45,123 nucleotides of DNA, taken from the IMG/VR virus record IMGVR_UViG_3300031277_000006, positions 1 to 45,123 of that record. One strand, written 5' to 3'. Position 1 is the first letter of the stretch; each line of letters starts with the position of its first letter. The notes below the pieces were generated by a model. The model ran no database searches and had not been told where the DNA came from. It saw only the letters and a program-made list of their open reading frames with translations. The DNA comes from a virus. This document shows, in pieces, positions 1 through 45,123 of this stretch. Position numbers and translations under genes: made by a program.

Positions 1-127
1 ACCGCGACGCTGACAGCGCTATCGGAGGTCGGCGTAAAAGGCGCAACCATCTTGAAGGGCCTTGGTGTATGGGAGGGCAACGTCGAGGAATGCTTTGTGG
101 TCGAGGTGGGGACTTCCCCGCCCGCCT
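1..127. repeat. Terminal overlap, left copy
   Basis: These bases are identical to 44997-45123. The repeat lies inside a gene whose reading frame continues cleanly from the right end into the left end, so the molecule was circularised by the assembly or is circularly permuted. A length of exactly 127 is typical of the largest k-mer of short-read assemblers (general knowledge). It is probably an assembly overlap and not a physical terminal repeat. Confidence 0.95.
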
Positions 128-360: not shown

Positions 361-705
361 ATGACTCTTCAAGACCAACTGGTAGAGGCCGGGCTCGTGC
401 GCGAGGAAGTGAAGGCCAGACTCGAAGCGGAGGCGCGGAGCCGCAAGGTGCTGGATTCCGTACTGGTTACGCTTTATGCCTCGCAGCTTGTGGACCGGCA
501 GGCTTTGGCCGCGTTGCTCCCGCCTGAGCTGGAGCGCTATCACAAAGCGCTCAAAGACCTTCACCTCTATGTGGTGGAGGTAGGGCGGCACTCCATTCGG
601 TTTGCGGAACGGCCCCGGCGCTCCTACATCGCCTTCTGCTACGCGGCGCGGCGGCGGTTCGACCGCGCGTTGACGCGGGAAGCGAGGCAGCAATGCGCGC
701 TCTGA
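361..705 (+). CDS. Hypothetical helical protein
   Basis: 114 residues. ATG 361 was chosen because a purine-rich GGAGAGGAAGAAG directly precedes it; the frame is open upstream to 235, but those starts lack a good ribosome binding site. The N-terminal half is a charged, probably helical region (residues 1-60, rich in Glu, Ala, Arg and Leu). The C-terminal half is basic (FAERPRRSYIAF, AARRRFDRA). No domain recognised; the basic tail could bind nucleic acid, which is inference. Its end overlaps the start of the metalloprotease gene by 13 bases. Confidence 0.75.
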   Translation: MTLQDQLVEAGLVREEVKARLEAEARSRKVLDSVLVTLYASQLVDRQALAALLPPELERYHKALKDLHLYVVEVGRHSIRFAERPRRSYIAFCYAARRRFDRALTREARQQCAL

Positions 706-1253
706 TTCTCCTAGCCGTAGGTGCAGTTGGCTGTGCGTCCTCGCCCAAGCTGCTCGAGTGGCCGGACGGGAGCCGCCGCATGCTGTGCGCTGACGCGCCG
801 GTTACCGTGTTCGACTTGTTCACCGATGCGCGGCTCTCCGCGCAGCTCCGAACAGCGGCGGACGTCTGGAACGATTGGGCGCGCCTCCCGCTTTTCTTCG
901 TCAGCGCGGGGCCGCCTGTTGTCGTTGGTGTGGATGCGCCAGTCGTGTTCGTAGTTGAGCATGAGCTGCCAGACCCCGATTGGAATGGCTACGCCCGTTT
1001 CGGGCGTCTCGCAAGTAGGGGCGGTTGCAGCCGCAACGTCATTGTGGGTTTGTCCCCAAAAACCAGGGCGTTGACAGACCGCCAGATTGCGGCGATATTG
1101 GCGCACGAGCTTGGGCACGCATTGGGCCTAGCCCACGTCAAGCTTGATGATGAGCTGATGTGGCCGCATGTGCACCAATCGAATGTGGTACTGTTCAGAA
1201 TCCCCGCCCCCGGCGAGGAACAACTCAAATGGGTCCGAGAGACCTGGAGGTAG
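693..1253 (+). CDS. Lipoprotein metzincin-type zinc metalloprotease
   Basis: 186 residues. The N-terminus is a lipoprotein signal: hydrophobic residues 3-13 followed by AVGC with the lipid-accepting Cys at 14. Residues 138-148 read HELGHALGLAH, the full metzincin zinc motif (three His ligands and catalytic Glu139). A Met at 156 (LMWPHV) is placed like the Met-turn. This spacing is closest to matrixin-type (M10) proteases. The protein should be exported and membrane-anchored, cleaving proteins in the periplasm, at the cell surface or outside. It lies in the early arm, away from virion genes, so it is unlikely to be a structural maturation protease. The motif is strong; the biological role is unknown. 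Confidence 0.85.
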   Translation: MRALILLAVGAVGCASSPKLLEWPDGSRRMLCADAPVTVFDLFTDARLSAQLRTAADVWNDWARLPLFFVSAGPPVVVGVDAPVVFVVEHELPDPDWNGYARFGRLASRGGCSRNVIVGLSPKTRALTDRQIAAILAHELGHALGLAHVKLDDELMWPHVHQSNVVLFRIPAPGEEQLKWVRETWR

Positions 1254-1681: not shown

Positions 1682-1887
1682 GAGCGCTGCTTTCCACAGC
1701 GCTCCAAATGGGCGCCGTTATTGCGCTCCTTGGGGTCTTTGCCTTTGCCACCGTGCGGGGCTGTGTCGCCGAAACCAACAAGGAGCGCGCCTTTCAAATC
1801 TGCCTCCAAACCTGCGACGCCTCTCCCAAAGTCGGCACGTGCGTAAGCGTGTGCTGGGGGCAGTACAAGGGGAACAGCCATGAGTGA
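1678..1887 (+). CDS. Membrane-anchored twin CX3C mini-protein
   Basis: 69 residues, starting with ATGA overlap. Residues 9-26 form one hydrophobic segment after a single Arg, giving an N-in anchor. The following soluble part contains CLQTC (C42, C46) and CVSVC (C55, C59). This twin CX3C arrangement is known from helical hairpins locked by two disulfides, which fits the oxidising periplasm. The inference is a small periplasm-facing, disulfide-bonded protein tethered to the inner membrane. The exact partner is unknown. Confidence 0.7.
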   Translation: MRALLSTALQMGAVIALLGVFAFATVRGCVAETNKERAFQICLQTCDASPKVGTCVSVCWGQYKGNSHE

Positions 1888-2197
1888 TGCACAGGACAAG
1901 CCCGATAAGTTCATGGAGATTTTGTGCGCCCCGGAGCGCGGGCCGGTTGAGTGGGAACGGGCCAACGCCCTGACGGTGTGGCAGACGAGTCAGCGGCGCG
2001 TGCCTCGCAGTGAAAGCAAGAACGATGCCTATCGGTGCGGCCTTGTTCAGGGAATGGCCGGCATGCGCTCCCTCGAGTGTCATGGTCCGGCGGATTGGGC
2101 GGCCGCCTACGCTCTCGGTTGGATGCGCGGAGCATTCCCCCGCCCGTTCGCGGCTGAAGAAGCGGAGGCCCCGGCATCCGATGACTCAGACGCCTGA
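1880..2197 (+). CDS. Hypothetical protein
   Basis: 105 residues; ATG at 1880 overlaps the end of the previous gene by eight bases, preceded by AAGGGGAAC. The centre has the repeated pattern AYRCGLVQGM and AYALGWMRGA, suggesting packed helices. The C-terminus is a disordered acidic Ala/Glu/Asp tail (EEAEAPASDDSDA). No known motif. It overlaps the start of the RepA-like ATPase gene by 17 bases. Confidence 0.7.
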   Translation: MSDAQDKPDKFMEILCAPERGPVEWERANALTVWQTSQRRVPRSESKNDAYRCGLVQGMAGMRSLECHGPADWAAAYALGWMRGAFPRPFAAEEAEAPASDDSDA

Positions 2198-10591: not shown

Positions 10592-10658
10592 CCCCTAGAG
10601 CAGGGGAAGCCGCCTCGTCGGTCCGACCCCGGCGCAAGGTGGCGCCCCTGGTTTGTTG

Positions 10659-13079
10659 ATGGACTACGGTAAGCCACTCGATTGTGCCTGCGCCAGTTGC
10701 CCGCTGGCGCAGCAGCCATTTTGTCCCCATCTGACCACACCGAATGCTACACACACCTGGCTCGCCGAGAGCCCCGGCCGGCAGGAGATTCTGCGCCGCA
10801 CCCCCCTCATCGGCCCAACCGGAACAAGGCTCGACCGCGCCGCGCGCGAGGCGGGTATCGTTCGCGCACACGCCAACATTGGCAACAGCGTGGCGTGCCT
10901 CCCGCTGAAGGGGATGAGCGACAGCGATTGGGGGAAGGCTGTCAAGTGCTGCGCCCCCTACCGTACGCAGTTTCTCCAGAGGCACAGCGGTCCCATCTTC
11001 TCCATGGGGAAGTGGGCCCTCAAAGGGGCGCTTGGGCTCGACAGCATTCAGAAGTGGTACGGCTACCCCCAAGAGAGCCGTGTGGAGGGCGTTGAGGGGC
11101 GCGTGGTGCTCCCGGCGCTTCACCCCACCTTCTCTTTCATCCACGCGCCTTGGTGGGGCGCGGAGTTCGACCGCTCCATCCAACGGTTCGCAGAGATTCT
11201 CCACGGAACGTGGAAGCCATTCGTCAAGCCCCCGCTTCTTTGGCGTGCGCCGGACTATGAGCTGGTCGCCGCGCTGGACAGGCTCGATGGCAAGCTGATA
11301 GCCCACGACGCGGAGACCGCTGGCATCGACCCTCAGTTTGACAAGCTCATCTGCCACGGCTTCAGCGACGGCAAGGAAGCAGTCACCCTAATCTGGCCGC
11401 CGAGCCCCGAAGTGCTCGAGGCGCTCTTTGCCTTGTTGCGTCGGACGGAGTTGTTCGTTGCGCACAATGCGCAGCATGACCTCCTCGCCCTCGAGAGCAA
11501 CGGTATTTGTTGGTGGGAGTTCTTCCGTGAGGAGCAGATTGTTGATACCATCAACTTCCACGCCATTCTCTACCCCGATATGCCTCACAGTCTCTCCATC
11601 GCCTCGGCGCGGTATTCCATGCCGCGATGGAAAGCGGAATACCATGATGAGAGCGAGGCGAAGGGGAGCGCCATGTTCGCTCAGGCGCTGGAGAGCCACA
11701 CCCTCATGGACCGCCTCTGCGAGTACAACGGGCTCGATTGCGTGTCAGACGCCTGGCTCGGGCGGGACTTGAGGGCGGAGATGGCTGTCTCCCTTTCAAG
11801 TACGCAGCGGACCTACTCCGACCTGGTTGACCGCTTTTGGGTGGCGCTGGATATGCGCCGCCGCGGCGTTCCGGTCAACCTGGCGCTGCGGGAAGAAAAA
11901 CAGGCGAAGTTCAAACGTCATCGCGATACCGCAGAGGCGCGCTTCAACAAGCTGGCACAGCGGATGTTCTGGCCGGCCATCAACCTTGGCAAAAAAGCCA
12001 CCACCAACGACGTGCGGTGGCTATTCTTTGACTACTTCGGACTGCCGGCGCTCGATTGGACGAAAGCCGGCCGGGCGAAGCTCGATGCGTGGACGCTTCA
12101 GCGCTGGGCGCACGGCGGGCTTGCCGGGCGGGAGGCCGCCTGTGCTGCGAAGCTCGTGTTGCGGATGCGGCGTGGGGAGCACATGCACGGCATGGTCGAG
12201 AGCCTCCCAATATCGCCGGACGGGCGGCTACATTCGGGGTGGAATCCCTGGGGTGCCCTAACTGACCGCTGGGCTTCGAGCAAACCGAACCTCCTGAATC
12301 TCCCAAAGCGGGGCTTCGGGGGAATCCGCGACCTCATCACTGTCGAGCCAGGCTGCTCAATAGTTGGGGCCGACATGAGCAAGGTTGAGCTTCGGGTCAT
12401 CGCCATCCTCGCCAACGACCTGCCCTTGATTGAGGCATTCGCGAAGGGGGTTGACGTTCACATGGCGAATGCCATCGACCTCTTCGGGCCGAAGGCGACG
12501 AAGGCGCAGCGTGACCTAGCCAAGCGGCTTGTGTACGGGTTCAACTACGGCGCCGCAGCGGAGACCGTTTGGAAGGCCCTGGTTACGCAGTTCCCGAAGC
12601 TGGCGTTGAAGGTGATCGTGCACCTTCGCAAGCAGTGGTTCAAGAAGCATCCGGCAATCGCCGCCTATCACAAGAAGGTGCTCACCAGTACGCTGAAAAC
12701 ACGGCAGCTCAGGAGCGGTTCCGGCCCCCGCACGTGGTTCTTCTTCCCCGGCAAGGTGGACCCGAACGAGTTATACAACCGGCCTATCCAGGCGGCCGTG
12801 GCGAAGGCCATCAACGATGCCATCGTCGCGCTATATCGGGAGGGGTGGGATGTGCGGCTCATGTGCCACGACGAAATCTGTCTGATGGTCCCATTTGGCC
12901 GAGAGCCCGAGGCAGTGGATGCCCTGTTCAGACACATGGAAGCCCCGCATGCGCTTGCGGGTGGTATGCACAGTCTTCCCATTGACCCATTCATCGGGGA
13001 TAATTGGGGGACGCCAAGTGAAGCGTTGCTCGATTGGGTTGTAACGATGGAGCTTTTAGGAAGGGAGAGAGATGATTGA
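10659..13079 (+). CDS. SPO1-type uracil-DNA glycosylase/DNA polymerase A fusion
   Basis: 806 residues from ATG 10659 (two TTG codons precede it). Residues 1-185 are a family 4 UDG-like domain: C11, C14, C80 and C97/C98 placed as Fe-S ligands, AESPGRQE (36-43), TPLIGPTGTRLD (48-59) and the HPT motif at 155-157. Residues 212-370 are a DEDD 3'-5' exonuclease (D217, E219, D274, Y356, D360). Residues 390-806 are the polymerase: motif A Asp572, O-helix R618, K622, Y626, Y630, and motif C H737-D738-E739. All catalytic residues are present. Tyr626 aligns with E. coli Phe762, the T7-like state. This is the replicative polymerase; the N-terminal domain may handle uracil-containing template or be structural. 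Confidence 0.93.
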   Translation: MDYGKPLDCACASCPLAQQPFCPHLTTPNATHTWLAESPGRQEILRRTPLIGPTGTRLDRAAREAGIVRAHANIGNSVACLPLKGMSDSDWGKAVKCCAPYRTQFLQRHSGPIFSMGKWALKGALGLDSIQKWYGYPQESRVEGVEGRVVLPALHPTFSFIHAPWWGAEFDRSIQRFAEILHGTWKPFVKPPLLWRAPDYELVAALDRLDGKLIAHDAETAGIDPQFDKLICHGFSDGKEAVTLIWPPSPEVLEALFALLRRTELFVAHNAQHDLLALESNGICWWEFFREEQIVDTINFHAILYPDMPHSLSIASARYSMPRWKAEYHDESEAKGSAMFAQALESHTLMDRLCEYNGLDCVSDAWLGRDLRAEMAVSLSSTQRTYSDLVDRFWVALDMRRRGVPVNLALREEKQAKFKRHRDTAEARFNKLAQRMFWPAINLGKKATTNDVRWLFFDYFGLPALDWTKAGRAKLDAWTLQRWAHGGLAGREAACAAKLVLRMRRGEHMHGMVESLPISPDGRLHSGWNPWGALTDRWASSKPNLLNLPKRGFGGIRDLITVEPGCSIVGADMSKVELRVIAILANDLPLIEAFAKGVDVHMANAIDLFGPKATKAQRDLAKRLVYGFNYGAAAETVWKALVTQFPKLALKVIVHLRKQWFKKHPAIAAYHKKVLTSTLKTRQLRSGSGPRTWFFFPGKVDPNELYNRPIQAAVAKAINDAIVALYREGWDVRLMCHDEICLMVPFGREPEAVDALFRHMEAPHALAGGMHSLPIDPFIGDNWGTPSEALLDWVVTMELLGRERDD

Positions 13080-13638
13080 AATTGTCAAAGTGCCGGCGGC
13101 AAACTGGAACAAAGGAGCGAGCATCAAGCAGTACATGCGCTACCCAGCGCAGATTGACACCATCATGTTCCACCGCATCCTTGTAGGTAAACCGGCCACT
13201 GATACAACCGTCGAGAACGTCATCGAGTTTTTCGCGGATGAGGGACCACGCTGGATTGGGACGACGGATATGCCTTACACGTTCATCGTGCAGGTGAACG
13301 GGGTCATCGCGCAGTGCGTTAACTTGCAGACGAAGACGCCGCACGCCGGCGGCTACAACCGCAGGGCAGTTGGTATCGGTGTGGTAGGAGACTTTCGGGA
13401 CCACCGCCCAACGGTGGCGCAGACTTTCGCGTGCGTCACGCTCGCAGTGTCGCTCGCAGAGATGCTCCCCGCCCCGCCGCTCGTCACCGTTCACGGGGCA
13501 ATCCCCAAGGCAACGAAGGACAAGAACAAGCTACTCGGCGGTTTGGACGAGTGCCCCGGCGCGCACTTCCACAAAACTTGGTATCGCGCTCGCGATGCTG
13601 TTTCGCGGCGCATGAAGCAGGAAAGGATTGAGTGGTGA
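13072..13638 (+). CDS. Endolysin, N-acetylmuramoyl-L-alanine amidase (Amidase_2)
   Basis: 188 residues, overlapping the polymerase end by eight bases, with GGAAGGGAGAG upstream. It has the Amidase_2/PGRP layout: FHR (His34), PYTFIVQVNG, NLQTKTPHAGGYN, AVGIGVVGDF, VHGAI (His141) and ECPGAHF (Cys161). His34, His141 and Cys161 are the expected zinc ligands. The enzyme would cut the amide bond between MurNAc and L-Ala in peptidoglycan. There is no signal peptide, so it needs a holin. The holin/spanin candidates are on the opposite arm near 27 kb. Confidence 0.88.
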   Translation: MIEIVKVPAANWNKGASIKQYMRYPAQIDTIMFHRILVGKPATDTTVENVIEFFADEGPRWIGTTDMPYTFIVQVNGVIAQCVNLQTKTPHAGGYNRRAVGIGVVGDFRDHRPTVAQTFACVTLAVSLAEMLPAPPLVTVHGAIPKATKDKNKLLGGLDECPGAHFHKTWYRARDAVSRRMKQERIEW

Positions 13639-15346: not shown

Positions 15347-15555
15347 CCCCCGAGGCCCTAAAGCTGTTCGAGGCGGTCAAGAAGCGTGTAACCGAAGAGG
15401 TTGAGCCAATCGACCGTGAGGAGCCGGAGGCGTATGTGCAGCCTCTTCAATTTGCGTTGGACATCTTGGCCTTGGCGGGCAGGACGAATGAGGCCGACGT
15501 TTGGCGGGTCATCGACACGCTTATTCTCACAGACTTCGGGGAGGATGACGACTAG
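15343..15555 (+). CDS. Hypothetical small helical protein, last rightward gene
   Basis: 70 residues, acidic and helical (LKLFEAVKKRVTEEVEP, QFALDILALAGRTNEADVW). This is the last gene of the rightward arm. Its stop overlaps by four bases the end of the convergent leftward gene at 15552. No family recognised. Confidence 0.7.
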   Translation: MTPEALKLFEAVKKRVTEEVEPIDREEPEAYVQPLQFALDILALAGRTNEADVWRVIDTLILTDFGEDDD

Positions 15556-15848
15556 TCCTCCGCGGCTTCTGGCTCGAACAGGGCCAGAAGCCGCCTCTCC
15601 GCGTCCAACCAGCTAATCTCCATCGCCCCACAGACGGCCTCTTCTCCCCCCGGACGGAATAGCTCCCCCAAGCAGTGCGCCCACACCAGCATATGGAACA
15701 GCTCGTGGATGGCGTGTTTGATATCCCGCTCCCGGACTACCAGCTCCCGCTCCCCTGAGTCGAAGCTGCCCGCATCCTCCGCCTCGGGGTCATGGTAGAC
15801 CGATACGGTCTCCTGCCCGAGGCGGACTGCACCCAAGCGCTCCCTCAT
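15552..15848 (-). CDS. Small HExxH zincin (metallopeptidase-like)
   Basis: 98 residues. HELFH at 48-52 supplies two zinc His ligands and the catalytic Glu; Glu69 or Glu70 (GGEEAVCGAM) would be the third ligand, the gluzincin pattern. No signal peptide, so it acts in the cytosol or in the virion. It is the last gene of the leftward arm, behind the internal virion proteins. Similar minimal zincins occur in phages with unknown roles. Active-site motif clear, substrate unknown. Confidence 0.7.
   Translation of the reverse strand: MRERLGAVRLGQETVSVYHDPEAEDAGSFDSGERELVVRERDIKHAIHELFHMLVWAHCLGELFRPGGEEAVCGAMEISWLDAERRLLALFEPEAAED
15562..15594. terminator. Perfect 12-bp hairpin at the arm convergence
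   Basis: GCGGCTTCTGGC (15562-15573) and GCCAGAAGCCGC (15583-15594) pair perfectly across a nine-base loop, a few bases beyond the meeting point of the two transcription arms. It could stop transcripts from the rightward arm. Neither side has a T-run, so it is not a canonical Rho-independent terminator. It also lies within the last codons of the leftward gene. Confidence 0.5.
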
Positions 15849-16030
15849 GGTAGGAACTTGACCGCAAGCCCCGCGAGGAGCCCCATTGTGGCTGCGATGC
15901 CTGCCACCTTCCCGTAGAGCCGCCAGTGGCCCTCGGTCAGCTTGTCAAGCCTCTCCACAATCGCATCGCCCTTCTTCTCCACCCGGTCGAGTGCCGCTAA
16001 CACCCATTCTCTGTCATGCTCCCACGCCAT
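15845..16030 (-). CDS. XhlA-like coiled-coil membrane protein
   Basis: 61 residues from ATG 16030, overlapping the previous stop by one base. Residues 1-40 form a charged helix (WVLAALDRVEKKGDAIVERL) and residues 43-60 form one membrane helix (VAGIAATMGLLAGLAVKF). This matches XhlA/hemolysin-type proteins, which assist holins in some phages. It could be an antiholin or accessory holin; its position far from the 27-kb lysis cluster makes this uncertain. Confidence 0.6.
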   Translation of the reverse strand: MAWEHDREWVLAALDRVEKKGDAIVERLDKLTEGHWRLYGKVAGIAATMGLLAGLAVKFLP

Positions 16031-26522: not shown

Positions 26523-26896
26523 TAGAACACCACCAGTTTGATTGAGACATCCGCTGAGCACTCGAGGGGCAAATGCACCTTCGTGTCGACGTTGTTCGCG
26601 GCAATCTCAGCATCTGTCGCGTTCCAAACGATAGACGAAGCATCCTGTCCAACTACGTACCAACCCTGATACTTCCGGCCCAAACCGTGCGGAATCAAGT
26701 TGATGCCGGCTGATGCGTCGAGAGCAATTGCAATGCCGGTGCCCAGGTGTTTGTCGATGAAGCGCCCGGAAAGGTGTGCCCGCTCACGAAGCGAAAGCGC
26801 CTGTGACAGCGCATCCACGCGCTTCGACAGCTGCGTGATGTCAAGCGGCGTGACGCCCGTATGCGTCTTTGCCTCACGGCGGATTTCACTGGCCAT
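26522..26896 (-). CDS. Small virion protein (tail-associated)
   Basis: 124 residues from ATG 26896, five bases after CCGGAGG and overlapping the upstream gene by 11 bases. After a helical N-terminus (LSKRVDALSQALSLRERAH) comes a beta region with IPHGLGRKYQGWYVVGQD and a terminal VSIKLVVF. The pattern HGLGRxxxGW ... V.L.VF is common in short podovirus structural proteins next to the tail genes. A trimeric knob or adaptor is possible. Confidence 0.6.
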   Translation of the reverse strand: MASEIRREAKTHTGVTPLDITQLSKRVDALSQALSLRERAHLSGRFIDKHLGTGIAIALDASAGINLIPHGLGRKYQGWYVVGQDASSIVWNATDAEIAANNVDTKVHLPLECSADVSIKLVVF

Positions 26897-27254
26897 TGAG
26901 TCCTCCGGCCGCCGCATAAATGAGGCTCATGATGATGGCAGTAGCGGCGCCGCCCATGAGGGCCCACTCAGCGCGGTCCCACCATTTGTCGCTGTGTGCG
27001 GCTTCAACACGCTCTCGCATGATATCGAGCCGTGCTTGACAGCGAGATGGCAGCACGCGTGCCTGCTCCCGTTGTAGGTCGACCGCGTCGGCGAGGTCCG
27101 GTGGCAGGCAAACAGTCCCATCAGCCTCCTCGATGGGCGCGCTCAGCCCCTCAAGGCTGAGGTCGATTTGGGGGGCAACCTGGGGCTCAACGGCCGGCGC
27201 CGTCGCGCCGCAGGCGGTCAGCAAAAGAGCCACGCCGACGCGCCTCAGCCACAT
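26886..27254 (-). CDS. Spanin lipoprotein, possible u-spanin
   Basis: 122 residues from ATG 27254; an ATG at 27272 adds six residues. MWLRRVGVALLLTAC is a compact lipoprotein signal with lipidated Cys15. A roughly 80-residue Pro-rich then helical periplasmic part follows, and residues 97-117 are a C-terminal membrane helix (WALMGGAATAIIMSLIYAAA). A lipoprotein with a C-terminal transmembrane helix is the defining layout of unimolecular spanins (T1 gp11 type), which fuse inner and outer membranes at lysis. It also overlaps the preceding coiled-coil membrane gene out of frame, as Rz1 overlaps Rz. Confidence 0.65.
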   Translation of the reverse strand: MWLRRVGVALLLTACGATAPAVEPQVAPQIDLSLEGLSAPIEEADGTVCLPPDLADAVDLQREQARVLPSRCQARLDIMRERVEAAHSDKWWDRAEWALMGGAATAIIMSLIYAAAGGLNGQ

Positions 27255-27429
27255 CCCGCTCAGCTTCAGCATCTGCAAGTTCGACACGAGCTTTCTCCTC
27301 TGTGTTTCGGGCCGCAGCCGCCTTCTTAGCGGAGCGGCTGCTCTTGAGCATGAAATAACCAGCGCAGGCAGCAAGCAGCGCCCCTGCCGTCCAGGTCAAC
27401 CACACCCACACTTTGCGGAGCACTTTCAC
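27187..27429 (-). CDS. Rz-like inner-membrane coiled-coil protein
   Basis: 80 residues, GTG start overlapping the holin stop (GTGA). Residues 8-28 are a membrane helix (VWLTWTAGALLAACAGYFML) and residues 30-70 a charged coiled coil (AEAERDVAEARRR). This is the topology of an i-spanin (Rz), with the lipoprotein gene overlapping its end. If the lipoprotein is a u-spanin, this one may instead be an accessory to the holin. Length is short for Rz. Confidence 0.6.
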   Translation of the reverse strand: MKVLRKVWVWLTWTAGALLAACAGYFMLKSSRSAKKAAAARNTEEKARVELADAEAERDVAEARRRGSFADRLRRDGAGR

Positions 27430-27659
27430 GGAGCCTCCGTTTCATCGGCAGCGGCCGAGGCGGCACTTCGCTCAGCCCACGCCTGCGCGGCCTTCCCACC
27501 AGAGAGGGCAGCGTACGCACCAAGGACAATCGCAGTATTGAATGACGACCACGTATCCCCGACGAGCAGCCCCATCGCGCACAGCACGGTGCTCGTAACG
27601 GAGGCAAAGGTCAACACGCCGAGAATTGCCTTCTGGGCTTTTCCGAATCGAGTTCGCAT
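27426..27659 (-). CDS. Holin candidate
   Basis: 77 residues from ATG 27659 (overlaps the adaptor stop as TGATG). Two membrane helices at about 11-33 (ILGVLTFASVTSTVLCAMGL) and 40-60 (FNTAIVLGAYAALSGG), with a basic N-terminus and an acidic, Ala-rich tail. Two helices and fewer than 100 residues fit a class II holin. It starts a three-gene lysis cluster with the spanin genes. The partner endolysin is encoded on the other arm. Confidence 0.68.
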   Translation of the reverse strand: MRTRFGKAQKAILGVLTFASVTSTVLCAMGLLVGDTWSSFNTAIVLGAYAALSGGKAAQAWAERSAASAAADETEAP

Positions 27660-28938: not shown

Positions 28939-30249
28939 TTAGCTCGCCTGGAGCTTGAAGCGCCCGCTGCGGCCGGGCTTCTTGACCGAGAGCTGCCCGC
29001 GGAAGGCCATGCGGCCCTGATAGGCGTCCTCAGTGGCGTGACGAAGGATACTCAGGCCGTCGTAGTCCTCCAGATTGAGTGCCGGGCCGGCGCTGTGGAG
29101 GGTCACGTCCTCCATACGACCCATCCACACCTCATCGCCAATCTGCTTGGCGGCGGGCATGATGCGAATCGGGGAGCCGTTGACACCATGAACCCACACG
29201 CCGCGATAGGCGATGTTCGCCACAAGGCCGCGGGCGCCGACCGGGTTCATGTCCACGTCCTGCTTCCGCAGCCCAAGCTCCTCGATGAGCCCACGGAACG
29301 GGCTGATACCCATCAGACCCACATTCGGCATTCCGCCTTCCTTCGCAAGGACGGCAGAAGCGCGGATGAGTGCCTGCTCCCGACTCAGGCCGCTGTAGTC
29401 AATGTACTTCCCGTACAGTCGGCTGGAAGCCGAACGGTCGACGTTGAAGTGCGAATCCCCACCGGTTGGCGCAGTCGTCGGCGCCCAAGACATGAGGCCA
29501 GACAGCTTGATGCGGGTCGCCTCAGTCGCAGAACTCGGCGCGGCGCCGTCCTGACGAATGTAGGGGTTGGTGGTCGCGTCCCAATTGCTCACGTCGTCGG
29601 TGCCAGCCACCACCTCGGTGAAGGTGACCTTGTTGTTCGCCACGTCAATGGCAGAGCAATACAGGTTCGAGTTGGCGATGTCCGCACCGAAGCGAGAGGC
29701 CGCAGCCACTGAATTGAAGCGCTCGTTCAGCTCGAACAGCATCGCGGCGTCCGGCTCGGTGAAGTCCACCTGGGTCGTGGTCGCCGTGGCGGCAAGTACG
29801 GTCTTGATTTGGGCGATGACGCCGGAACCGTCCCGGAAGATGGCGTGCTCGATGGCATCGGCCAGGTTGGCCTCGGCGTCGTCGAGCGCCCGCGCAGCCA
29901 TCGAGCTGACGAGCATATCCCACGCCATGTCGCGGCTGCGGGTGTAGGCGAAGGTCTTGCCGGGGACATCGATGATACTGTACTCATCAACGCCAGTGAG
30001 CAAGAAGTCCTCAATCTTCTTCGACCGCAAAGCCGAGATGGTCTGCGCAGTCGCGAAGGTCGGGGAGACACCGCCGGTGCGGCCGTAGGTGACAACGACA
30101 GGCGTATTTCGCCCGCCGAACATCTCATCCTTGTTGACGAGACCGAAACCGACACGCTCATCGTAGAACATCTCGGCTTCATTCGAATCCACGTACAGCT
30201 GCTTCAGCGCAGCGTCGAGGTCCGAAAGGGTATTCGCGGTGACAGTCAA
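28939..30249 (-). CDS. Major capsid protein
   Basis: 436 residues. It follows portal and scaffold in order, begins MTVTANTLSDLDAALKQLY, and has the mixed helix/strand pattern of HK97-fold capsids of the P22-like group (LVNKDEMFGGRNTPVVVTYG, ARALDDAEANLADAIEHAIF, VWMGRMEDVTLH). The only usable start is TTG 30249: every in-frame codon between it and the TAG upstream was read and none is ATG or GTG. A perfect AGGAGG lies five bases before TTG but inside a 9-bp hairpin. A TTG start is odd for the most abundant protein. Confidence 0.8.
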   Translation of the reverse strand: MTVTANTLSDLDAALKQLYVDSNEAEMFYDERVGFGLVNKDEMFGGRNTPVVVTYGRTGGVSPTFATAQTISALRSKKIEDFLLTGVDEYSIIDVPGKTFAYTRSRDMAWDMLVSSMAARALDDAEANLADAIEHAIFRDGSGVIAQIKTVLAATATTTQVDFTEPDAAMLFELNERFNSVAAASRFGADIANSNLYCSAIDVANNKVTFTEVVAGTDDVSNWDATTNPYIRQDGAAPSSATEATRIKLSGLMSWAPTTAPTGGDSHFNVDRSASSRLYGKYIDYSGLSREQALIRASAVLAKEGGMPNVGLMGISPFRGLIEELGLRKQDVDMNPVGARGLVANIAYRGVWVHGVNGSPIRIMPAAKQIGDEVWMGRMEDVTLHSAGPALNLEDYDGLSILRHATEDAYQGRMAFRGQLSVKKPGRSGRFKLQAS

Positions 30250-31565: not shown

Positions 31566-33488
31566 CTAAAGTCCCGGAACCTGCGAACCGGGAGGGGTTA
31601 AGTTGGCTGGCCCCTGCATTCCAGCGGCCAGTTGTTCACTTCCAATCTGCGGCATCCCGCCCATCGGAGGCGGTCCACCCATTTGCTGTCCCATCCCAGC
31701 GGCCATCATCTGTGCCATCGCCTGCGCCTTCAACTTCTGGTCTACCTGCGCAGCCAACCGGCGAAGCAACGAAACGCGGTCGGCTGGGATACCTAGCTCT
31801 TCTCGGCGCTGAATCGCGATGGACACCTCATTCTGCACCTTGCCCAGGTCCGCCACATCCTCCACCGGCTCGAACCGGCCATATTCAATGATGTTGCTGA
31901 CGAGGCGCTCCGCGTACGCCTGCGGTGCGTTCGCCTTTTGGACCATAGCCTCCAAGTCGGGGATGCCGCTGATTGAACTGACGATGTACGGAGCCATCTG
32001 CTCGTTCAGGGGCGCGAGCGTCTTGATGAGTTCCACCTTCCCAGCCGGCTCTGACGGGATGATGCTAACGGGCCGCGGGCGGACAATGAACATGTCCTTC
32101 TCCATCGCCACGTCCGACCAGTCAAGCTGTTCGAGCCCCTTGTCCCCCATCCCAAGAGTTCGCGCCGTTCCGTACCCACGCTTGACGATTTCGCGGGCTC
32201 TGTCCTGCACCTGCTCATCACAGTCGATGAAGAACTGCGCACCTCGCTGCTCCGTGTGGCGGTAGCGGCGAGTCGCAACGTCATGATAAAGGCGGATGGC
32301 ATCGCCGGAGTAGAGGCCGGGAGGCTTGGTGCCGGTGGCACTCATCTGAGAAACGCCGAGGATTTCGTAGATGGTCCGATACAGCCTGTCAATCTGGTTG
32401 TAAAACTCGCCGGACGCGGCGGTCATGTTGATGGCCTGCGGCGGGGTGTCGATGTACTCGTACACCGCCCAGTCCTCGTTCGTCATGGATTGCTGCATCG
32501 AGCCCTGCTTCTTCACCAGGATACTGGTGGCAAAGTGCATGAGCCGTTGCAGCTTCTGCGCGATGACGTTCAACTCAATTTGGATGGGGAGCACCTCTTC
32601 AACGGCGCCGATGCCGTAGAAACCGATGGGCGCATCGTTCCAGCGGAAGAAAGCGAAGGGCGGCTTGTCAAATGCCCACTCCTCATCGAGGAACACCTGA
32701 TTGCTGACGGCGATGACGTGGCGCCCAGGACTCCCCGCACAGGGGACCTTCCAAGCCTCGATGAGCGTCACAGGGTCGTCGACGGCCGCGTACGAAGCGT
32801 GGGCCTGCTCAAGGAACTCCGCCTGCTCGATTTGCTTGGCGAACTTCTTCAGCATCGGATTGCTCGTGAGCACATTTCGCCCAACAGCACGCATCTCGAG
32901 CATGTAACGCGGGGGTGCACCGGGGACGAGCGCTTGGACCTCGTTGTCGTCGACGAAAATGCTATCGGAACGGACGCGCTCGATGCCAATCTTTCCGTTC
33001 TGCCTCGCCACAAACTTGAGCGCGCCGAGCCCATCAATGCACGAGTCAAGGAACACGCCCAGCCAAGCGATGTTGAGCTGAAGGTGATGAAACCACCCCT
33101 GCACGTACTTATCGAGCCGCTCCGCCCTTTTCCGTTGTTCGTAGGAGGCGCCCGAGGTTAGATGCATGACGCCGGGCTGGTTCGTGGCAATTTGCGCTAC
33201 CGCGGCGTCAATGGCACTCTTGGTTGCGTTCAAACGGATACGGTCTCCGCTGTTCATGCCCTCAGTGAACGCGGAGCCATTCAGCGACGTGGCAAGACGG
33301 TTGCTGTACACACGAAGGTGATGAAGATTCGCAGCAATCCGCCTCCGCTGCCTGTCAGCGAGGTACGTCGCCGTAGCGAACACCATCTTCGCAAGCGCAT
33401 CCTTGGGGGCCTCCCACCAAAGGTTGGTGGTCGTTCCGTCCTTCTTTGCGGCAATGGGGCGCTTGCCGTCGAAACTTCCTCTACGCAC
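31566..33488 (-). CDS. Portal protein
   Basis: 640 residues, GTG start after TAGGAGGAAGAC. Features typical of podovirus portals include the N-terminal helical WEAPKDALAKMVFATATYL, the repeated mention of ring-forming helices (RIRLNATKSAIDAAVAQIA), FFRWNDAPIGFYGIGAVEE and LPIQIELNVIAQKLQRLMH. The C-terminal 60 residues are Gln/Met/Gly/Pro-rich (MAQMMAAGMGQQMGGPPPMG). It follows the large terminase by two small genes and would form the dodecameric DNA gate. Confidence 0.82.
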   Translation of the reverse strand: MRRGSFDGKRPIAAKKDGTTTNLWWEAPKDALAKMVFATATYLADRQRRRIAANLHHLRVYSNRLATSLNGSAFTEGMNSGDRIRLNATKSAIDAAVAQIATNQPGVMHLTSGASYEQRKRAERLDKYVQGWFHHLQLNIAWLGVFLDSCIDGLGALKFVARQNGKIGIERVRSDSIFVDDNEVQALVPGAPPRYMLEMRAVGRNVLTSNPMLKKFAKQIEQAEFLEQAHASYAAVDDPVTLIEAWKVPCAGSPGRHVIAVSNQVFLDEEWAFDKPPFAFFRWNDAPIGFYGIGAVEEVLPIQIELNVIAQKLQRLMHFATSILVKKQGSMQQSMTNEDWAVYEYIDTPPQAINMTAASGEFYNQIDRLYRTIYEILGVSQMSATGTKPPGLYSGDAIRLYHDVATRRYRHTEQRGAQFFIDCDEQVQDRAREIVKRGYGTARTLGMGDKGLEQLDWSDVAMEKDMFIVRPRPVSIIPSEPAGKVELIKTLAPLNEQMAPYIVSSISGIPDLEAMVQKANAPQAYAERLVSNIIEYGRFEPVEDVADLGKVQNEVSIAIQRREELGIPADRVSLLRRLAAQVDQKLKAQAMAQMMAAGMGQQMGGPPPMGGMPQIGSEQLAAGMQGPANLTPPGSQVPGL

Positions 33489-34478: not shown

Positions 34479-36347
34479 TCAGTTGACATAGGGGCTCCTT
34501 CTTCCAAGATTGAACACGGCGTCCGGGTCCGTGTTCGGGTTCAGTTCGCACCAATGGCCACCAGTCTTTCCGACGGCCTTACGATACGCGTCCTCCCGCC
34601 ATTTGTCGAGCTGCTCCTGTTGCGCCTCAACTGTCCCCGGCTGCGGGGCCGGCTTCTTTGGCGGGTCAATCCAACGAGAGGCCGCACGGATGAAGGCTGG
34701 GGTATAATCACAGTGGCGCCCATCTGCCGTCTCGGCTAGGTGAACAGCCGGGCCGCGTGTATTCACCACGCGGTGCGCCAAGCGAAGGTCCTTGTGAAAC
34801 TGGTTGTCGTCCGGCAGCTCCACCAGCCCCTCGGTCATCAGTGCTTTCATGCCAAGGTAGAAGTTGACCTCTTCGCCTTGCTTCCACGTTTCGGGGATGA
34901 CAGACAGCCCACGTTCGAGGGCCAAGTCGCGGATAGCGTCGGCGCTCCACTGGTCGGAGTAGACGTAATCGAGGTGGTAGTCCCGCAAGATGACAGCAAT
35001 CTCCCCGAGGGCTTGGCGGGGGGAGAACGGATTGAGCTGGCTGCCCACCCATTGCTGATACCACACCACACGAATCTTCGACTCGAGCTTGCCCCCCTCT
35101 GCAATGAACCGCGACCTATCAACAATCACTAGCGTCCACGCGTTACCACGGGTAGCCGGGTCCATCGCTGCGGCGTACTCATGCCCGTGCTGATAAGGGA
35201 TGACCGTGATGCCATCGGGGCCAGCCGTCCGCGTGCACAGGGCAATGATGCTTTGGACGAACAACGCTTCGCCCGCGTCGGCGAACTCGGCTTCAACATC
35301 CATTTGCCAGGCAACTTCGTCGCTATCCTTCAACTCCGCGCAGCGTTCCGGGGTCCACCAAATCGGGTTGAGCCAAGGCCCTTTAGCCTTGACGACAATC
35401 AGCGTTTTGGGGGAGGGCCTTCCCCAGAACTCGTTGAACCTGTCAAACACCGGTCCCGCATTAACCCAAGGCGAGCCCATACTGAAAAGCTGCGCACCTG
35501 GAAGGAGACGCCCAAGAACCGATGTCCGGATATCGTCGTAGTTGACAACACCTTCAGAGGCCCCCACCATACGCGGGGCCTCGTCAAGCCCAATGCCAGC
35601 AGCCCAGCGAGATACTGTGGACCCGCCTGCCCGTTGCCCAGCGACAACCCGAATCTCAATAGGCCGTCCAGACGGATGCCAAAGGAACACCGAACCAATA
35701 GTGTCCGCCGCGGACTCCTTGATGATTTCATCCCAATCGCTCCATTTCTTCAGCTCCTTCTCGTCCACCCGCAGTGCAGCAACCTTCTTCTTCCGCAGCG
35801 CACCAAGGAGGTGCATGAGAACGACCTTCGCGTTGTCCTTCTTCAGGCTGATGATGGAGTAGCGGGGAATCTCACCGGCTCCCACCATGTCAGGGATTTC
35901 GATGCGCTGCGTGGCCATGATGGCGCTCGCCGCAATCAGCAACGACTTGAACGTGCGGATTCCGGCGATGACCATCACCTCTTTGGGGATGGAGCACCCC
36001 GTCGCAAGACGGAGTTCCTCAAACGCCTCCAACTCCTGCTGCGTCATGCCAAGCGCATCCGCCAGGTGGGCTTCGGGGTCTTCGACCAGGGCTTTGGTTA
36101 GCGGACGCCCTTCGACCAACCGACAAACGGCTCGCTGGAGCGGGGATATGGTGGTGATGCCGAAACCATCGGGGGACTCAATCAGCTCCTCAATGTTCTC
36201 GAAGAATCCCTCACGCATCCCCAGCCGGCGCTTTGCCTCTTCAATCAAAACCGCCTTGGCTTCAGGCGGGAGGAGGTCCACGCGCTCAACGATGAAAGGG
36301 TCGTTGGCGCGGGAGTTTGGTTTGGTGGGGTTGCGTTTGGGGGGCAT
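34479..36347 (-). CDS. terL: Terminase large subunit
   Basis: 622 residues. ATPase part: a P-loop-like VIAGIRTFKS (127-135) in place of a strict GxxxxGKS, Walker B with LDEAPRM (254-260), and motif III LFSMGSPW (287-294). Nuclease part: AAAMDPATRGN with Asp396, then VYSDQWSADAI and CDYTPAF carrying further acidic residues. This is the motor that packages DNA into the procapsid and cuts it. The packaging type (headful, cos or repeats) cannot be read from this alone. Confidence 0.9.
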   Translation of the reverse strand: MPPKRNPTKPNSRANDPFIVERVDLLPPEAKAVLIEEAKRRLGMREGFFENIEELIESPDGFGITTISPLQRAVCRLVEGRPLTKALVEDPEAHLADALGMTQQELEAFEELRLATGCSIPKEVMVIAGIRTFKSLLIAASAIMATQRIEIPDMVGAGEIPRYSIISLKKDNAKVVLMHLLGALRKKKVAALRVDEKELKKWSDWDEIIKESAADTIGSVFLWHPSGRPIEIRVVAGQRAGGSTVSRWAAGIGLDEAPRMVGASEGVVNYDDIRTSVLGRLLPGAQLFSMGSPWVNAGPVFDRFNEFWGRPSPKTLIVVKAKGPWLNPIWWTPERCAELKDSDEVAWQMDVEAEFADAGEALFVQSIIALCTRTAGPDGITVIPYQHGHEYAAAMDPATRGNAWTLVIVDRSRFIAEGGKLESKIRVVWYQQWVGSQLNPFSPRQALGEIAVILRDYHLDYVYSDQWSADAIRDLALERGLSVIPETWKQGEEVNFYLGMKALMTEGLVELPDDNQFHKDLRLAHRVVNTRGPAVHLAETADGRHCDYTPAFIRAASRWIDPPKKPAPQPGTVEAQQEQLDKWREDAYRKAVGKTGGHWCELNPNTDPDAVFNLGRRSPYVN

Positions 36348-43173: not shown

Positions 43174-43569
43174 ATGCGCCAGTTTCGAGTCGGCGACAAG
43201 GTCAAGTGGTACCAGTCTGGTTTCACTCCGTTGTGGAGCTTTGAGTTCATTACATCAACAGGAGGCTCTGGGTGTTGGATGAATGGTGTCGTTACCAGTG
43301 TGGCGGATGATGATACTTTTGCGGTAGGTAGGTGGCGCTGGCCCCAACCTGGGCACACATTAGCCCGTTACGACGAACCGGGGTACCTCGAACTGGTCGA
43401 GGCGGTTCTGACACCGAAGTTCAAGATGACTGAAACAATATGCGGTGAGTTGCTCTTGCGAGAGGCCGACTCTCCTGAAGCTCTGTCGCATTTCCCTGAG
43501 TCCTGCCGCGCCGAGCTCGAGGCTCTCTGCGAGAAGCTAAACAATGGCACGGGCGAGGGTGAGCCATGA
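43174..43569 (+). CDS. Tandem paralogue A
   Basis: 131 residues, ATG 43174 after GACTGAGAG. Its start MRQFRVGDKVKWY, then PLWSF, NGVVTSV, RWRWPQPGH, GYLELVEAVL and ELEALCEKLN recur in the next gene in the same order. The first 80 residues resemble a small SH3-like beta barrel (GDKVKW... VVTSV). The middle third has diverged between the copies. Function unknown. Confidence 0.75.
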   Translation: MRQFRVGDKVKWYQSGFTPLWSFEFITSTGGSGCWMNGVVTSVADDDTFAVGRWRWPQPGHTLARYDEPGYLELVEAVLTPKFKMTETICGELLLREADSPEALSHFPESCRAELEALCEKLNNGTGEGEP

Positions 43570-43976
43570 GAAAATTCAAAATCGGTGACCGCGTCAGGTG
43601 GTACGAGATCGACGGGCGCCCTTTGTGGAATTTTGATACCATAGAGGAAGTCTGCTCTGATAGTGGTCGTGGGCGCTGGATTGAGGGCGTCGTCACCTCG
43701 GCGACAGATGCTGTGTTCGACGCCGATGGCTCGTGGGAGTGGCCGCAACCGGCTCATTGTCGATCTATGTACGGCGAGCTAGGCTACCTAGAGCTGGTCG
43801 AGGCTGCGCCGGAACCAGAGTTTGAAGTGCGGCGTGTCCCTAAGGATGGGTGCTGGTACGTTGGTCGAATAGGTGGCGGAGCAGTCATGCTGTTCCCTGG
43901 GAGATGCATCAACGAGCTTGAGGCCGTCTGCAAGAAGCTGAACAAGGAACACGAGAAGAAAGAAGGGACGCCATGA
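43566..43976 (+). CDS. Tandem paralogue B
   Basis: 136 residues, ATGA overlap with copy A. Shared blocks: MRKFKIGDRVRWY, RPLWNF, EGVVTSA, SWEWPQPAH, GYLELVEAAP and ELEAVCKKLN. The region between the last two blocks differs (FEVRRVPKDGCWYVGRIGG), so the copies may bind different targets. The pair arose by gene duplication. Confidence 0.75.
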   Translation: MRKFKIGDRVRWYEIDGRPLWNFDTIEEVCSDSGRGRWIEGVVTSATDAVFDADGSWEWPQPAHCRSMYGELGYLELVEAAPEPEFEVRRVPKDGCWYVGRIGGGAVMLFPGRCINELEAVCKKLNKEHEKKEGTP

Positions 43977-44919: not shown

Positions 44920-45123
44920 ACCACGCAACCATCTATCGCATCTACGTTGGCCTGACAACGCAGGACGGCGTGGATATTTCGGCCGAGGAAGCAGGGACCG
45001 CGACGCTGACAGCGCTATCGGAGGTCGGCGTAAAAGGCGCAACCATCTTGAAGGGCCTTGGTGTATGGGAGGGCAACGTCGAGGAATGCTTTGTGGTCGA
45101 GGTGGGGACTTCCCCGCCCGCCT
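44916..45123 (+). CDS. Hypothetical protein, 5' part (gene crosses the join)
   Basis: This is the start of the 103-residue protein that continues at positions 1-231 (its first 27 codons are unique to this end). ATG overlaps the previous TGA. Across the join, 81 bases here plus 231 at the left end give an unbroken frame, which confirms the circular arrangement. Function unknown. Confidence 0.85.
   Translation, partial: MNHATIYRIYVGLTTQDGVDISAEEAGTATLTALSEVGVKGATILKGLGVWEGNVEECFVVEVGTSPPA
44997..45123. repeat. Terminal overlap, right copy
   Basis: Identical to positions 1-127. Counting each base once leaves 44,996 unique bases. Confidence 0.95.

Follow-up and report, generated by a model that had tools for sequence, protein, structure and literature searches.

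The window, by which we mean the whole 45,123-base stretch of viral DNA from IMG/VR that was analyzed, encodes a 186-amino-acid matrixin-type metzincin that begins with a lipoprotein-type signal and whose counterparts are nearly constant in an uncharacterized phage lineage. In six relatives of that lineage, the gene is found in a late cassette together with holin-like and lipoprotein-like genes, which points to lysis or release. We tentatively propose, with a probability of roughly 0.45, that the protein is anchored by lipid in the envelope and assists lysis or release as a protease. The features on which the analysis is based are listed in Table 1. Because the two ends of the window (1-127 and 44997-45123) are identical over 127 bases, the window probably represents a full genome, 44,996 bases in length.

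Table 1. Features of the window discussed in the text
Feature	Positions	Strand	Evidence or remark
Upstream gene, 114 aa	361..705	+	Without convincing family match
Lipoprotein metzincin (matrixin-type zinc protease), 186 aa	693..1253	+	PF00413, motif, AlphaFold model
Lipoprotein-type signal, residues 1-14	693..734	+	MRALILLAVGAVG-C14, +2 residue Ala
HELGHALGLAH zinc motif, residues 138-148	1104..1136	+	Core invariant in 19 homologues
Met-turn Met156	1158..1160	+	Eight residues past His148, as in MMPs
Four small genes downstream of the metzincin	1260-1442, 1439-1681, 1678-1887, 1880-2197	+	
Endolysin, Amidase_2	13072..13638	+	PF01510, E 4.7e-10; same + arm as the metzincin
98-aa HELFHMLVWAH protein	15552-15848	-	End of late module
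Coiled-coil plus TM protein, 61 aa	15845-16030	-	End of late module
u-spanin-like protein	26886..27272	-	Lipobox LLTAC and C-terminal TM; architecture only
Two-TM holin-like protein	27426..27659	-	Near the u-spanin-like gene, inside the virion module; architecture only
Major capsid protein (probable)	28939..30249	-	Common to the lineage; named by its place in the gene order, after portal
Portal protein	31566..33488	-	Lineage marker independent of the protease
Large terminase	34479..36347	-	Lineage marker independent of the protease

Zinc motif, fold and lipoprotein-type signal

The metzincin ORF starts with ATG behind a GAGG Shine-Dalgarno sequence, and no ATG, GTG or TTG start is found upstream in its frame, which fixes the position of Cys14. 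Met156 is invariant in the 19 aligned homologues, and its distance from the zinc motif equals that of MMP-20 and MMP-3. The DNA pattern for HExGHxxGxxH has a single occurrence in the window and is absent from all 100 shuffles. The protein matches PF00413 (Peptidase_M10), the search proposed by the initial annotation, with an E value of 2.2e-6 and 28.1 bits, above the Pfam cut-off of 24, and 18 of the 19 aligned relatives match the same family at E<=0.001. Sequence matches in the PDB are weak (best E 0.0028); the ones listed are MMPs or karilysin and cover the motif and the Met-turn. The AlphaFold2 model built from the 19-row alignment (pLDDT 74.8, pTM 0.75) has its strands and helices ordered as in metzincins, and its quality is owed to that alignment, since a run with only eight rows, more divergent ones, failed at a pLDDT of 43.6. 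When compared by VIA-align, the model superimposes on MMP-9 with a Z score of 14.4 and an rmsd of 2.9 over 140 aligned residues and on karilysin with a Z score of 14.2 over 140 residues.

Although the catalytic fold (Z 14), the HExxHxxGxxH motif and the Met-turn spacing are shared with the MMPs (MEROPS M10A) and karilysin, identity in the structural alignments is 13-17%, and the window protein has neither a hemopexin domain nor the other hallmarks of these enzymes. Neither a pro-domain nor a PRCGxPD cysteine switch is present, the catalytic domain following directly after Cys14, and the structural-zinc site of MMPs, which consists of three His and one Asp, is missing, as His90 is the sole histidine before His138. 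Without a pro-domain and this second site, the protein is, as judged from sequence and model, a metzincin of the PF00413 type and not an MMP of subfamily M10A. Zinc-dependent proteolysis is predicted for it. The BF0631-type metalloproteinases of TIGR03952 are lipoprotein metzincins as well, but this family spans 351 positions compared with 186 residues in the window protein; membership was rejected because the window protein scores 19 bits, below the cut-off of 208. Searching PHROG gave no good match for the metzincin, so annotation pipelines that are based on PHROG miss the family.

Residues 1-14 (MRALILLAVGAVGC) carry a charge at R2, are uncharged and mostly hydrophobic from residue 3 to 13 and end in the lipobox A-V-G-C14. 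Residues 4-14 fit a PS51257-like lipobox rule that is passed by 0.2% of shuffled sequences and by 2 of the 61 window genes. The Cys range of PROSITE PS51257 itself is 15-35, one residue beyond Cys14. Cys is also at position 14 in three relatives (L022, L023 and G025) and at 14-22 in the relatives overall, which follow the same plan, and Cys14 is aligned with the Cys of the homologues in both alignments inspected (A2, with 19 homologues, and A6). All eight known copies of the lineage, the window's included, possess a lipobox. Among metzincins collected with the same alignment query, 8 of the 24 viral proteins pass the rule, compared with 1 of the 35 cellular ones (Fisher p 0.002). Lipidation at Cys14 is thus predicted, and residues 16-22, modeled with very low confidence, would suit a flexible tether. 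The initial annotation, which had called a lipoprotein metzincin of the matrixin type from the letters alone, was right on both counts: the residues that it named (Cys14, His138, Glu139, His142, His148 and Met156) are correct by sequence check, the lipoprotein-type signal fits the rule, and the motif, the PF00413 match and the likeness of the model to MMP-9 and karilysin bear out the family.

An undescribed phage lineage and the position of its metzincin gene

The terminase, portal and large tail protein of the window match those of three contigs, G001 (L014), G011 (L047) and G013 (L049), at 21-32% identity, and its capsid matches those of G001 and G011 in the same range. All three had originally been found through the metzincin. 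Circularity was avoided by using only portal and terminase alignments to seek further members among viral contigs; this search yielded five contigs of 23-42 kb (G023, G025, G026, G027 and G028) and four fragments of <9 kb. Four of the five long contigs contain a metzincin, as detected by family alignment and PF00413 alike, and all four metzincins begin with a lipobox, whereas 42 control contigs of 23-69 kb, each with a PolA motif, gave no metzincin with either query; the difference (Fisher p 2.8e-5) refers to a lineage sample of five contigs, to portal and terminase alignments built from metzincin carriers and to controls that are not host-matched. On this basis, the metzincin is nearly constant within this uncharacterized lineage, which comprises the window (16030-36347 on the minus strand), G001, G011, G013 and the five long contigs. 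Members have terminase, portal and capsid in common (21-36% identity), and it is by these three proteins that the window is assigned to an undescribed phage lineage; a search of 50,697 phage records gave no match to the window terminase. Single-protein searches returned no relatives of the metzincin in viral contigs, phage records or plasmid records, and viral contigs likewise gave none for the AAA_25 protein or the PolA of the window.

In six of the eight lineage copies (G001, G011, G013, G023, G026 and G027), the metzincin gene comes after those of two large virion proteins, where the late module ends, and is found near genes for a protein of ~130 aa, a one-TM protein of 55-70 aa, labeled holin-like by size and TM only, and a Cys-rich lipoprotein-like protein of 85-109 aa. 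The order varies slightly, as an 856-aa gene intervenes in G027 and the ~130-aa gene of G011 is downstream of the metzincin instead of upstream. An endolysin is near the metzincin in G001 (PG_binding_1), G013 (GH25, PF01183 3e-20) and G027 (GH25-like by reading), on the opposite strand in the first two. The same cassette is kept without the metzincin in G028, so that the metzincin is separable from it and dispensable there. To the extent of the literature searched, the lineage-wide association of a metzincin with a holin-like and small lipoprotein-like cassette is new; no lipoprotein metzincin in a lysis cassette was found in this literature, which was mostly open-access.

The remaining two copies, those of the window and G025, belong to the early arm. 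The G025 gene comes immediately behind a small HTH gene, and terminase and portal are encoded on the other strand. The window copy lies in the early + arm, where the initial annotation had placed it; it is upstream of the replication genes and distant from holin and spanin. Its start overlaps the 3' end of the upstream gene by 13 nt, likely indicating translational coupling, and the start of the next gene follows its stop at a distance of seven bases, an arrangement like that of a compact operon. Among the small downstream genes, the third encodes a protein with an N-terminal TM and 5 Cys; a family search of the metzincin neighbours gave no convincing match, and no TIMP-like partner was recognized among them. 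The late-module end of the window (15552..16030), where the six relatives place the metzincin, is occupied instead by the coiled-coil plus TM protein and the 98-aa protein. The HELFHMLVWAH of the latter corresponds to HExxHxxxxxH with Val replacing the metzincin Gly, and this protein is without a family match. When the holin-like and small-lipoprotein families of the cassette were sought in the window, they gave chance scores only. In the tree, the window copy is not grouped with the late-cassette copies (support 47/39); a single clade is not rejected (p-AU 0.20), and the window copy may be orthologous to them. The u-spanin-like gene, which had no match in a family search, hints at a host that is Gram-negative and at a spanin separate from the metzincin.

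Two further observations concern the window genome. A single ORF (10653-13079, + strand) encodes a Family A DNA polymerase with an N-terminal domain of the uracil-DNA-glycosylase superfamily (PF03167 2.3e-6, residues 29-160), and two adjacent genes on the + strand, 43174-43569 and 43566-43976, with similar starts (MRQFRVGDKVKWYQ and MRKFKIGDRVRWYE) are apparently a tandem duplication.

Possible roles in the infected cell

In the proposed mechanism, a matrixin catalytic domain made without a pro-domain would be exported by Sec, lipidated at Cys14 and anchored in the envelope by a short flexible tether, probably at the outer membrane given the Ala at +2. The anchored enzyme would then cleave proteins in the envelope or periplasm of the infected cell, making lysis or release faster or more complete as an accessory to holin, endolysin and spanin and not as their replacement. 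The early-arm copy of the window would do the same job as the late-cassette copies, and its position in the + arm is compatible with lysis, as the window endolysin is also found in that arm. Like the spanins (Rz/Rz1, T1 gp11), the metzincin would be a phage outer-membrane lipoprotein acting in lysis, but a spanin identity was rejected, since it has no C-terminal TM and the window has its separate u-spanin-like gene.

The only functionally tested phage-derived metzincin that we found in the literature is that of the Listeria Mtz-Tim system. Listeria Mtz is encoded downstream of holin-lysin in prophages, sensitizes cells to phage lysis via its protease activity and appears to act by cleaving a lipoprotein partner (PMC8235301). 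Both enzymes are phage-derived metzincins, and Mtz acts, as the window protein would, outside the membrane; Mtz is, however, secreted in a Gram-positive host and its partner Tim is the lipoprotein, whereas the window protease itself bears the lipobox. A role in lysis and release, such as Mtz appears to have in lysis, is considered the most likely one for the window protein. Several observations speak against such a role: the window and G025 copies have an early-arm position distant from holin and spanin; G028 is without the gene; some carriers have their endolysin 12-23 kb off or an integrase beside the metzincin (L052); the endolysins of G001 and G013 are on the opposite strand; and the cassette families are undetected in the window, whose copy the tree leaves unplaced. 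A stronger version, in which the membrane-anchored matrixin is a dedicated lysis or release factor of a Gram-negative phage lineage that was shifted to early expression in the window, strikes us as doubtful. Holin and endolysin would in that case open membrane and wall, and the metzincin would cut the tethers between outer membrane and wall or other envelope proteins. To our knowledge, envelope proteolysis is not a recognized lysis step in Gram-negative phages. The natural late, early and absent versions of the metzincin in one lineage offer a ready comparison for such a step.

The main rival to a role in lysis or release is receptor removal or superinfection exclusion, in which an early surface protease, produced shortly after infection begins, sheds or trims an outer-membrane receptor or an adsorption co-factor so that superinfection is blocked or released virions are kept off debris. 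We consider it rather unlikely. It is kept in play by the early placement of the gene in the window and G025, beside small takeover-type genes, and the metzincin of L023 is in a nucleotide-metabolism region. Superinfection exclusion is known to be mediated by lipoproteins in some cases, such as Ltp of TP-J34 (PMC3952083), but no protease was found among the exclusion lipoproteins in the literature, and six of the eight copies in the lineage accompany holin-like genes where the late virion module ends. Of the surface role suggested in the initial annotation, the superinfection and receptor reading is thus kept alive by the early-arm copy, while the late cassette of the six relatives favors lysis or release.

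Less probable still is a protease made for the surroundings, which would degrade biofilm or a matrix protein so that progeny spread. The matrixin fold is characteristic of enzymes that degrade matrix, and matrix degradation was suggested by the authors who described the metallopeptidase of Maribacter phage Molly, a protein with a lipoprotein domain and a peptidase domain (PMC8776804); for Molly, this is a proposal only, and a lipid anchor would keep the enzyme bound to the cell that made it or to the debris of that cell. A lipoprotein matrixin in a phage is therefore already known, of a kind that is little studied, as no study of phage lipoprotein metzincins was found in the literature beyond the Molly description. 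The Molly/Colly protein (MT732450, QQO97377) resembles that of the window in its size (199 aa), its lipobox (MKYLILIALSSLLFLSC) and its matrixin-type domain, and it comes from an isolated tailed phage. It differs in that good alignment to the window protein is confined to the surroundings of the zinc motif (38% over 32 aa), that its motif is HEIAHVLGLGH and that its genome is that of a 124-kb myovirus.

It is improbable that the metzincin serves in counter-defence or against envelope stress by destroying either a sensor of envelope stress or a defence that the host maintains in its periplasm or outer membrane; an accessory gene that changes position, is near-constant in the lineage and is absent from one member would agree with this, but no defence target is known. 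Least probable of all is a decayed or cytoplasmic zincin whose N-terminus resembles a lipobox by chance, with no functional exported protease: the signal is unusually short (13 residues), with its Cys just outside the PROSITE range, and no close relative was found for selection analysis, but all catalytic residues are kept, the start overlaps the upstream gene, and the lipobox recurs throughout the lineage and is enriched in viral over cellular metzincins as described above.

Metzincins of other phages and bacteria

The initial annotation regarded matrixin-type metzincins as very rare in phages, a view that the survey of other carriers does not bear out in that form. The exact HELGHALGLAH pattern is found in 26 viral stretches, a few or more of them with Phe in the third or seventh position, which the codon pattern permits, and HE[LF]GHA[LF]G matches 472 IMG/VR stretches. 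Small lipoprotein metzincins are encoded in about 14 of the contigs that were followed up. Together with the Maribacter phages and the near-constancy in the lineage, these numbers make matrixin-like genes uncommon yet recurrent across phage contigs.

The position of the metzincin is not uniform across these phages. In L041 and L042, it overlaps an endolysin-like gene (phrog_465, 2e-5), and in L052 (7665-9665) the lipoprotein metzincin adjoins an integrase-like gene, as read from the sequence, at an apparent prophage end. Prophage ends are a typical place for accessory genes. In G003, G006 and G007, the endolysin is 12-23 kb from the metzincin. Amidase_2 is absent from the 14 other contigs with lipoprotein metzincins, among which Phage_lysozyme is found in one, 19 kb away, and M15 in two, at 12 and 23 kb; a general association of metzincin and endolysin across all carriers is therefore unsupported.

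The architectures of the proteins also vary. In L028 (7809-8510) and L041 (7683-8453), and alike in L042, the metzincin lipoprotein is in frame behind a coiled-coil and TM segment, an arrangement that may represent either a fusion or an internal start. Metzincins of ~200 aa with an N-terminal TM anchor are encoded in long viral contigs of 48-320 kb (L010, L013, L016, L018, L020 and L024). Viral metzincins of ~270 aa (L003, L004, L006, L007, L009, L011, L019, L021, L026 and L027) possess an N-terminal domain that is peptidoglycan-binding-like by eye, and an RCGLPD segment in this group resembles the MMP cysteine switch. In Acinetobacter chromosomes (L058, L061, L076, L084 and L087), three tandem metzincin genes with signal-like N-termini are found.
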